From NCBI GenBank assembly GCA_025352065.1, contig JANXUC010000092.1, positions 62,001 through 126,000 of the forward strand: DNA of 64,000 nt. Reading direction: 5' to 3'. Positions 4,775 to 23,740 of this stretch are shown piece after piece. Every line of letters begins with the position of its first letter. The stretch's first letter is position 1. The notes under the pieces were generated by a model. That model had not been told where the DNA came from. It saw only the letters and a program-made list of their open reading frames with translations, and did not search any database. This stretch comes from Acidobacteriaceae bacterium (lineage in GTDB: Bacteria; Acidobacteriota; Terriglobia; Terriglobales; Acidobacteriaceae). The position numbers and the translations under genes were made by a program.

Positions 4775-5527
4775 ATGAAGACCATGGCGGGAGTTGCTAT
4801 TTTGGGCGATCTCGCAGGCGCTATAGGAATTCGGACGGAAGTGCGGACGGAAGAGGCGGCCATCATCGCCGAGCTGCAGTCCGGCTCCGAGCAGGCCTAT
4901 GTCTGGCTCATTGGGCAATACCATGCCACCGTCTACAGCCTGGTCTACCGCGTATTGAACGATCCCTCCGACGCGGCCGATACTACGCAGGAAGTTTTTC
5001 TAAAAGTGTTTCGCGGCATCGGGCGTTTCCACGGCGGGTCGAGCCTGAAGACGTGGATTTACCGCATTGCGCTGCATGAGGCGTCCAACAAGCGGCGCTG
5101 GTGGTTTCGGCATAAGTCACGCGAGACGTCCATGGAACCGGTGGATGCTGAAACTGAATTCAGCGAAGGCGGCAACAGCGGCCTAAAAGAGACTCTGGTC
5201 GATTTGGCGGATTCTCCGTTCGACACTATGATGCACTCAGAAGTGCGGATCGAAGTGGAGAAGGAATTGCGCAATGTTCCGGAGCCATATCGGACAGCGT
5301 TGGTGCTGCGTGATCTGGAAGAGCTTTCGTACGAAGAAATTGCGGAAGTGACCAGCACGACTTTAGGAACCGTGAAATCCCGGATTACGCGAGGCAGGGA
5401 AGCGCTGCGGCAGAGGCTGGCAGCGTATGTTGAAAAAAATGGAGTGGGGTTGGGGATTGCCGTAAAGCCTGCGGCCAAAGTTCGAGCTGGTTCGGCTCAG
5501 GCCGAAAAGGTGCAAGTGACGCGATGA
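4775..5527 (+). CDS. ECF-type RNA polymerase sigma factor
   Basis: 250 residues from the chosen ATG (MKTMAGVAILGDL), preceded by GAGG with suitable spacing; a GTG at 4682 would add 31 residues. Sigma region 2 is seen in YHATVYSLVYRVLNDPSDAA and DTTQEVFLKVFRGIGRFHG with the -10 recognition segment KTWIYRIALHEASNKRR. Region 4 is the C-terminal helix-turn-helix (LRDLEELSYEEIAEVTSTTL followed by GTVKSRITRGREALRQRL). The two regions are joined by an acidic linker. It overlaps the anti-sigma gene by 4 bp (ATGA), so the pair is translationally coupled. It is expected to redirect RNA polymerase when the membrane-bound anti-sigma partner releases it. Confidence 0.93.
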   Translation: MKTMAGVAILGDLAGAIGIRTEVRTEEAAIIAELQSGSEQAYVWLIGQYHATVYSLVYRVLNDPSDAADTTQEVFLKVFRGIGRFHGGSSLKTWIYRIALHEASNKRRWWFRHKSRETSMEPVDAETEFSEGGNSGLKETLVDLADSPFDTMMHSEVRIEVEKELRNVPEPYRTALVLRDLEELSYEEIAEVTSTTLGTVKSRITRGREALRQRLAAYVEKNGVGLGIAVKPAAKVRAGSAQAEKVQVTR

Positions 5528-6610: not shown

Positions 6611-7027
6611 ATGACTTATAGAGCGATTCGCGCTTACCTCGGTGAAACCGGACAGCATGAGTCTGATTTCGTATTCATCGCTGGCCATATCGGATACATC
6701 GATCAATGGCAATCATTTGCAGACGCTTGGAATAAGGCTTTGGGCCATCAGCGAAAGCGGCTCCACATGAAGAGTCTGAGATGGTCTAGCTCTGCGACTG
6801 AAACCTTGCTCAAGAGGCTTGGGCCGATTCCCGCGCAGTCTGGCCTAAAGCGCCTTTTTGGCGGAGTCCGGGTTTCTGATTATGCGGACCTAGTTCCCGG
6901 TCCTCAAGAGGCAAGAGTGTTGAACGGCTACGCGTGCTCTGTCCTTTCAGTTGCCGTGAGTCTATTGCTTTGTAACGTTCCAAAAGGTGAACGATTCGAG
7001 TTGATTTTTGAGCAGCAGGATCGATAA
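6611..7027 (+). pseudogene. Truncated DUF3800-like protein
   Basis: 138 residues from ATG 6611. The opening AIRAYLGETGQHESDFVFIA followed by GHIGYIDQWQSFADAWNKAL resembles DUF3800 proteins, which begin with a strand carrying D-E-S/T-G. Here the usual Asp is Gly (GETG). The protein ends near residue 138, whereas family members are typically around 200-300 residues, so the C-terminal acidic residues of the RNase H-like fold are missing. Both points suggest an inactive remnant. It neighbours the parS-like site and an IS remnant. Assignment to DUF3800 is from pattern memory and could be wrong. Confidence 0.45.
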
Positions 7028-22594: not shown

Positions 22595-23215
22595 TTGCCC
22601 AAATCCGTTTCCACCGCACTCGCCGCCACAAGAGTTCTCACCATCGCCACCACCGGAGCCAGCGGCGCACTGTTCCTCCGCGAACTCCTGCGCATCGTCG
22701 AGCAAGATTCCCGCATCGCTACCGTCAACTTCATCGCCTCCGATAGCGCCCTCCGCGTCATGGCCGAAGAGCTACAACTCACAGGCCGCAATAATCTGAT
22801 CCAGCAGCTACTCGGCAAAGCCTCCAAAAAGATCCACCTGCAATCCAACGCTGACATAGGAGCCAACATCGCCAGCGGCTCTTATCCCAGCGACGCCATG
22901 GTCGTACTCCCGTGCAGCGTCGGCACCCTGGCCCGCATCGCCAACGGAGTCGCCGCCCAACTCATCGAACGCGCCGCCGACGTCTGCCTCAAGGAGAAGC
23001 GTCCCCTAGTTCTTTGTGTTCGCGAGACCCCTCTCAATAAAATCCATATCCGGAACATGTACCGCGCCGCAGACGCCGGAGCCACCATCTACCCGCTGAT
23101 CCCCACCTTCTACAACCACCCCGACGGCTTCGACGAAATGGCTCGCCAGTTCGCCTACCGCGTTCTGGCCCACATTGGACTCCCCAACCCCAACGCCTAT
23201 AGCTGGAAGGGCTAG
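22595..23215 (+). CDS. ubiX: UbiX-family flavin prenyltransferase
   Basis: 206 residues from a TTG start with GGAGA 5 nt upstream. The flavin-binding signature TIATTGASGALFLRELLR is at the N-terminus; PCSVGTLARIANGVAAQLIE, VLCVRETPLNKIHIRNMYRA and the C-terminal YPLIPTFYNHP follow. UbiX attaches a dimethylallyl group to FMN to make prenyl-FMN, the cofactor of UbiD-type decarboxylases. No ubiD partner is in the window, so this gene serves decarboxylases encoded elsewhere. A candidate structured RNA lies just downstream on the same strand with its own promoter. Confidence 0.93.
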   Translation: MPKSVSTALAATRVLTIATTGASGALFLRELLRIVEQDSRIATVNFIASDSALRVMAEELQLTGRNNLIQQLLGKASKKIHLQSNADIGANIASGSYPSDAMVVLPCSVGTLARIANGVAAQLIERAADVCLKEKRPLVLCVRETPLNKIHIRNMYRAADAGATIYPLIPTFYNHPDGFDEMARQFAYRVLAHIGLPNPNAYSWKG

Positions 23216-23377
23216 GATTCTAAGTTTTCAGGGGATGCCTTAGTCTACGTCTGCGGCAGGGCCAGCCGTAGATGCCCCGCAGACATGTACCCAAGGGTCG
23301 AAAACCCCTAAAATTCAAGCCAGATTCAACTGCCATTCACAAATAGTGACTCGGACGATACAGCCCCCAAAGTGCAG

Positions 23378-23406
23378 TTGACCGCCACGCCAAACGGGAT
23401 TATGTT
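23378..23406 (+). promoter_or_regulatory. Sigma-70-type promoter of the candidate RNA
   Basis: TTGACC (-35, 5 of 6) and TATGTT (-10, 4 of 6) are separated by exactly 17 bases. The predicted start is near 23413. The next plus-strand feature is a structured stretch ending in a terminator, not a long ORF. Confidence 0.65.
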
Positions 23407-23434
23407 GGCCGTACATCTCAGAAAGGAGGGATCC

Positions 23435-23479
23435 ATGCCAAGTAGCGACAAACGACCGAGTGAGGTAGCTGTAACCTAG
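23435..23479 (+). CDS. Possible 14-residue peptide inside the candidate RNA
   Basis: ATG 23435 follows AAAGGAGG with 5-nt spacing, the best ribosome-binding site in the region. The frame encodes MPSSDKRPSEVAVT and ends at TAG 23477-23479. A ribosome at the stop would cover the 5' arm of the long-range helix, the geometry of a leader peptide or attenuator, but no gene follows. The short length makes chance occurrence possible. Confidence 0.3.
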   Translation: MPSSDKRPSEVAVT

Positions 23480-23629
23480 CTGATTGCTCGAACCACCTTT
23501 TAGATGACCGGTGTGTTTGGGAAACGCATTCGGATGCTGCCCGCTCCCGCCCAGCCAGTGGGAGAACCCGTAGTTTGATCGAGGACAACGGAAGGGCAAT
23601 CGGACTAGGGAATCTCACCAGTCTACCGG

Positions 23630-23664
23630 CGCCCCGTGGATGGCCTCCGCGGGGCGTTTATTTT
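23630..23664 (+). terminator. Rho-independent terminator of the candidate RNA
   Basis: A 10-bp stem CGCCCCGTGG / CCGCGGGGCG (one G-T pair), a 7-base loop, then TTTATTTT. It is directional: the T-run is only on the right, so it ends plus-strand transcripts rather than those of the NUDIX gene. Confidence 0.88.
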
Positions 23665-23740
23665 CGGAATAAAAAGATTGTGTAGGGCGAGCATTCCTGC
23701 TCGCCAACCGGGCGCAGCCCGACCATTAGGTGTGCCAGCG

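Follow-up and report, generated by a model that had tools for sequence, protein, structure and literature searches.

What lies between ubiX and a NUDIX gene in this member of the Acidobacteriaceae: a structured RNA, a messenger for a very short peptide, or both? The original prediction, made on the window (the whole 64,000-nucleotide stretch of DNA that was analyzed), proposed a structured RNA that is independent, has a promoter and a terminator of its own, and carries a 14-codon ORF whose stop falls within the 5' arm of a long helix. Comparison with relatives indicates that the element is almost certainly a structured RNA that is conserved, contains a coding ORF, and is related to the Ms_IGR-5 RNA of Rfam.

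Layout of the Locus

The features of the RNA gene are collected in Table 1. The anticipated sigma-70-type promoter is present exactly where it had been placed, and a TTGAC..TAnnnT layout is found at equal distance upstream of relatives too; the 5' end of the window RNA is probably near 23413. The terminator is also present, although its stem is 13 bp in the free fold of the window copy and not 10 bp as first described, and nearly all inspected relatives have a GC-rich stem and T-rich tail after helix P1. The predicted long helix, in which CCTAGCTGATTGCTC (23475-23489) pairs with GGGCAATCGGACTAGG (23594-23609) around one bulged A, was recovered both in the sequence and in the free fold, as was the outer GGTAG/CTACC pairing. 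Free folding of 23405-23670 gave -101.9 kcal/mol (z = -2.53, with 3 of 200 shuffles equally good) and contained P1, P2, and the terminator helices, with P1 formed only ~45% of the time. The fold energy of the window copy is, on its own, weak evidence; the comparative evidence is decisive.

Table 1. Features of the RNA gene in window coordinates
Feature	Position	Strand	Sequence	Basis
Promoter, sigma-70-type	23378-23383 and 23401-23406	+	TTGACC, 17-nt spacer, TATGTT	Sequence
Extended Shine-Dalgarno (SD)	23422-23434	+	AAAGGAGG(GATCC), with AAAGGAGG at 23422-23429	16S-tail complementarity
Micro-ORF (14 codons)	23435-23479	+	MPSSDKRPSEVAVT*, ATG 23435 to TAG 23477-23479	Conserved frame
P1, 5' strand	23464-23471 (partner 23619-23627)	+	GGUAGCUG, codons ..G GTA GCT G	RNAalifold, covariation
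P2 and inner extension, 5' strand	23475-23489	+	CCUAGCUGAUUGCUC, stop codon included	P2 covariation
Variable middle with local hairpins	23490-23593	+		Length and sequence vary among relatives
P2 and inner extension, 3' strand	23594-23609	+	GGGCAAUCGGACUAGG	Fold, P2 covariation, model alignment
Internal loop, 3' side	23610-23618	+	GAAUCUCAC in the window, AAUCCCAA in most relatives	Near-invariant in alignments A1 and A2
P1, 3' strand	23619-23627	+	CAG-U-CUACC	RNAalifold, covariation, model alignment
Intrinsic terminator	23630-23664	+	GC-rich stem, then TTTATTTT (23657-23664)	Free fold

Relatives of the RNA

A DNA similarity search of 61 related genomes returned no homologue. Homologues were first found by reading the DNA downstream of ubiX in genomes of the same family. 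About half of these regions carry a related transcript, with promoter, extended SD, an ORF ending EVAE[TA]*, and terminator, and these transcripts share the 3' box GGYCAAUCCCAACAG-n-CYACCGG. A gapped pattern matched 74 of 250 same-family genomes, and the reversed pattern none.

Two covariance models were used: R1, which is acidobacterial and includes the window copy, and R2, which was built from 39 sequences with the window copy left out. When R2 was run blind over the 64 kb, a single match was obtained (23409-23629, + strand, 43.4 bits, E = 1.5e-10); the whole genome likewise gave a single match (E = 1e-8). R1 and R2 match every same-family genome sampled (31/31 and 26/26, respectively), with one copy in each, and several other acidobacterial families are matched as well. 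Outside the phylum, R1 finds relatives in Deltaproteobacteria/Binatia, Tectomicrobia, Spirochaetes (Spirochaetia, Leptospiraceae), Sumerlaeota (Sumerlaeaceae), and Actinobacteria, with E values from 1e-22 to 7e-7, and gave no match on 20 control loci that fit the search pattern by chance. Judged by these model matches, the superfamily spans at least six bacterial phyla.

Helices P1 and P2

Two helices emerged unprompted when RNAalifold was run on 26 acidobacterial sequences: P1, formed by GGUGGCUG and CAG-n-CYACC, and P2, formed by GRCU and NGGYC. Across these sequences 97.4% of cells are paired, compared with at most 45% for slid versions of the helices, and the covariation score is 0.252 against 0.161 in shuffled alignments (0/500 reach it). 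An alignment of 39 sequences, drawn from at least six phyla, is 94.4% paired, and five pairs show double changes; none of 500 shuffles equals the real set on any of five measures. The original prediction had staked the RNA on its presence in relatives and on compensatory changes, and both were found. P1/P2 is, by this covariation, a conserved RNA structure.

The ORF's last codons and its stop supply the 5' strands of both helices. The final sense codon contributes three positions to P2, where pairs are formed in 95%, 97%, and 87% of relatives versus 55%, 72%, and 67% after shuffling (0/2000 each), and they use G-C, A-U, and C-G. This pairing constraint means that the last amino acid (Ala, Thr, Arg, or Gln) tracks base pairing. 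In the window copy of P1, GGTAG (from 23464) pairs with CTACC (23623-23627), with an A-U pair at a place held by G-C or G-U in most relatives, and the start of P2 is delayed by one or two pairs compared with relatives. The inner extension (P4), a long-range alternative to a local hairpin at the stop codon (P3), is suggestive only. A pseudoknot between AAUCCCAA and the variable middle was considered and is unsupported (mean z = 0.10).

The Micro-ORF and Its Ribosome-Binding Site

The 14-codon ORF, whose stop lies within the long helix's 5' arm, proved genuine. ORFs of the superfamily have 11-22 codons and end EV[AT]xx*. In 122 distinct relatives found by pattern, the expected frame is open from the start codon to the EV end in 121, and the other two frames in 0 and 16. 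ORF length is a multiple of three in all 85 relatives with a fixed start, over 11 different lengths. These frame counts could be biased by the search pattern, so the 43 relatives found by model only were read separately. Every one of them has the ORF (L153 by eye), examples being MEYCRCGLMEVAAP*, MSLPSNYSETREVPVT*, and MISDCTDLVEVAFP*. The ends of the peptide are conserved (M-x-S-S-[DE] in the window's own family, EV[AT]xx* everywhere), the middle hardly at all. Such regularity of frame argues that the micro-ORF is under coding constraint.

Composition before EV is unusual. Ser makes up 29% of residues, versus 6% in neighboring genes; AGT accounts for 64% of Ser codons and AGA for 75% of Arg codons (9% and 6% in neighboring genes), and TGT for 86% of Cys codons (versus 23%). 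This codon bias could stem from selection for an unstructured start region and not from slow decoding.

The ORF is preceded by an SD that extends far along the complement of the 16S rRNA 3' tail, GGAUCACCUCCUUU. Pairing runs over 14-15 contiguous nt in 121 of the 122 pattern-found relatives, 10 nt of which were preselected, against a mean of 4.4 in neighboring genes. Among the 43 model-only relatives it reaches 14-15 nt in 18 and 9-12 nt in 25, the shorter pairing mostly reflecting a one-base insertion. The window has 9 contiguous nt, then a gap, then GATCC, and 22 of the 43 are likewise interrupted to 9 nt. This genome's assembly holds no exact match to the 16S tail, so the complement rests on the general consensus. 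Free-fold models leave the SD core only half open (0.44 unpaired), and in some clades the start codon is unusually distant from it. Sequestration of the SD by a 3' GACCRCCUC was rejected by eye: compensation is absent and the pairing is missing in several clades. An association by class between GGUC in the SD and GACC just before P1 was seen, but is confounded by phylogeny. In one clade of same-family genomes (within L142-L166) the extended SD has gained a single base (GGAGGATGRTCC) and the ATG is shifted downstream; several members of the clade have an extra in-frame upstream ATG.

Independence from Neighboring Genes

The window RNA lies between ubiX and the NUDIX gene, and its downstream gene is convergent. 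Of the genes next downstream of relatives, 54 are on the opposite strand and 52 on the same; the neighbors differ between phyla. Because many relatives are located elsewhere and downstream orientation is random, the ubiX/NUDIX neighborhood is without functional meaning. The comparison supports a stand-alone RNA gene, with its own promoter and terminator and independent of its neighbors.

A second conserved element lies directly 3' of ubiX (window 23228-23310), with the form CAGTGTAG..CAGATG..GGGACATGTCC and often a palindromic GGACATGTCC. It showed no consensus structure and no Rfam match. Since it occurs both with and without the adjoining RNA (L004, L005, L008, L009, L012, L024), it belongs to ubiX and not to the RNA.

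Relationship to Ms_IGR-5

The window copy stays below the gathering threshold (45 bits) of RF02471, the Rfam family of Ms_IGR-5, and gives no match to it even at E ≤ 10; the window's own genome has none at E ≤ 1. The idea of an undescribed system holds only in part, because intermediates connect the locus to a known family, a catalogued sRNA of no known function. Two relatives found by R1, L178 (Ornithinimicrobium, 4970-5184, - strand) and L245 (Tectomicrobia, 6748-6953, + strand), score 55.4 and 52.3 bits with RF02471 at exactly the positions of the RNA. As these are RF02471 members by Rfam's own cut-off, the window is linked to Ms_IGR-5 through them. Four others fall below the cut-off (L215, 39.9 bits; L265, 37.5; L010, 25.1; L030, 23.6).

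The RF02471 consensus has, like the RNAs described here, a ACACnnGGAAGGAGGUGGUCC start, GUGAGGUGGCUG, an AG-U-CACC 3' partner, and a terminator. The order of extended SD, GUGAGGUGGCUG, P1 partner, and terminator is common to the consensus and the window, which carries GUGAGGUAGCUG, a compensated variant of GUGAGGUGGCUG. The consensus can moreover be read as UUG-AUU-GAU-UUA-UGG-ACA-UGU-GAG-GUG-GCU-GCC-CGC-UAG (M-IDLWTCEVAAR*), close to the acidobacterial ..TWTCEVAEG* (L265) and the deltaproteobacterial MIDQCTDCEVAET* (L244). In Rfam's model P1 as found here is absent, the ORF is unannotated, and the family is labeled an actinobacterial noncoding sRNA; the entry could be rebuilt with P1 and the ORF. 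Placed by its intermediates, the window copy is a divergent acidobacterial branch of the superfamily to which RF02471 also belongs.

Published data show transcripts of Ms_IGR-5 in S. lividans (PMC8079986), S. avermitilis (PMC8780764), and M. smegmatis (PMC10454040); its homologues in M. abscessus and M. smegmatis carry ribosome footprints (PMC4974804). We found no function for it in the literature on Ms_IGR-5. As far as that literature goes, the breadth of the superfamily, the P1/P2 structure, and the conserved ORF appear to be undescribed.

Other known RNAs were considered and rejected. Across the whole window no Rfam family reaches its gathering score, and a search of 23215-23740 relaxed to E ≤ 10 brought up nothing relevant. 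As the original prediction held, the element is not tmRNA, RNase P, or SRP RNA; neither these nor riboswitches give an Rfam gathering match in the 64 kb. Nor is it 6S RNA (RF00013), which has no match in the window; the genome's own 6S is elsewhere (G000:C105:743-932, 60.9 bits).

A Possible Link between Translation and Fold

Sequence evolution attests to the structure, the frame, the overlap of ORF and helices, the independence from neighbors, and the phylogenetic spread. We propose, at a probability of about 0.5, that the locus encodes a stand-alone dual-function RNA whose form depends on its own translation and whose closed form or peptide acts in trans. An RNA of ~250 nt would be transcribed from its own promoter and end at its own terminator. 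The unusually long SD would recruit ribosomes, which would translate the rare-codon micro-ORF, whose last codons and stop double as the 5' sides of P1 and P2. Once at the stop codon, a ribosome would have to open both helices; an untranslated RNA could close them, exposing the structured 3' part with its conserved AAUCCCAA loop. The form of the RNA would thus be set by its translation state, with the closed form, or the peptide, acting in trans. Because the 5' strands of P1/P2 coincide with the last codons and the stop, a terminating ribosome and closed P1/P2 are, as a matter of geometry, mutually exclusive, and from this exclusion we infer that the RNA folds according to its translation and acts in trans. 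Reasoning from where the ribosome sits to what the RNA does is a step of our own. It presumes that the RNA is translated in this organism, that the two states exclude each other in the cell, that action is in trans, and that translation is sensed.

The simplest competitor is a mini-mRNA, in which the peptide is the sole functional product and the 3' structure does no more than protect the transcript or terminate it. Strict frame conservation, the strong SD, and the conserved peptide ends all suit it, and a given member of the superfamily could act solely through its peptide. We nevertheless consider it unlikely, because the peptide shows hardly any conservation in its middle and its C-terminal residues follow base pairing: the Ala/Thr alternation at the last codon tracks G-C/A-U pairs, and the position following Val, which may be Ala, Leu, Ser, or Thr, varies partly with its P1 partner. 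The AAUCCCAA loop, moreover, is conserved despite being noncoding. The RNA might alternatively be a ribosome trap, whose 16S-tail complement holds the 30S subunit or titrates anti-SD while ORF and structure tune the dwell time. The long 16S pairing kept across phyla and the distant start codons of some clades point that way; the reduction of this pairing to 9 nt in the window and in about half of the model-only relatives, the half-open SD core, and a 16S complement taken from the general consensus point the other, and leave the trap, in our estimate, quite improbable.

Two further accounts fare worse. Like the leader-peptide attenuators of amino acid genes, the RNA has a strong SD, a short ORF of rare or biased codons, a stop codon inside a helix, and a terminator; those attenuators, however, control the downstream gene in cis, which the RNA here does not. 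Random orientation of the downstream gene largely refutes a cis-acting attenuator of the neighboring gene, the window's own downstream gene is convergent, the neighbors vary by phylum, and no conserved antiterminator pairing was seen, so that this account has very little left to recommend it. A purely noncoding sRNA with an incidental ORF is Rfam's classification of Ms_IGR-5 and might draw on the pairing that constrains some end codons. For the superfamily it is refuted by the frame statistics, the presence of the ORF in all 43 model-only relatives, and the ribosome footprints on homologues (PMC4974804), unless frame conservation has another cause, and we find it scarcely credible.

The proposed dual-function RNA has partial counterparts in SgrS/SgrT, SR1/SR1P, Spot 42, and rnTrpL, which are likewise small, folded, and peptide-encoding (PMC11133741, PMC10117765). 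Those RNAs have a narrow phylogeny, unlike the one described here. We know of none among them whose closing helices draw their 5' strand from the ORF.

Breadth and Significance

All sampled genomes of one large acidobacterial family contain this RNA, as do several distant phyla, yet it has been recorded only as an actinobacterial "noncoding" fragment. The frame, the helices built from the ORF's own codons, and the full-length 16S-tail complement offer specific handles for experiment. A wider proposal, which we make tentatively and ourselves regard with some doubt, is that Ms_IGR-5, perhaps CC2171, and the acidobacterial RNAs are branches of one ancient and widely distributed RNA gene, in which a micro-ORF with a complete anti-SD complement lets the fold report translation initiation or elongation. 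If this were true, it would be a general translation-status RNA with a breadth comparable to that of 6S or tmRNA, and it would have escaped notice because its branches were each filed as local noncoding sRNAs or went unseen.

The consensus of CC2171 (RF01867), a Caulobacter sRNA, opens with GAAAGGAGGUGAUCCAGUG, where a start codon follows the same extended SD. One deltaproteobacterial relative scores 25.5 bits with RF01867 (gathering 75), and the window's own genome has no match at E ≤ 1. The RF01867 model has another helix layout, and no EVA end can be read in its consensus. The likeness is at present an analogy only; alphaproteobacterial CC2171 may be another branch of the superfamily. Locus L183 (2351-2528, - strand) has the same GAAAGGAGGUGAUCCAGUG start as the CC2171 consensus.

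Ten viral contigs carry the search pattern. Only one of them, IMGVR_UViG_2931122664_000001 (L318, 634-813, - strand), gives a model match, a weak one (22.2 bits, E = 5e-5) that possibly represents a prophage-borne copy.
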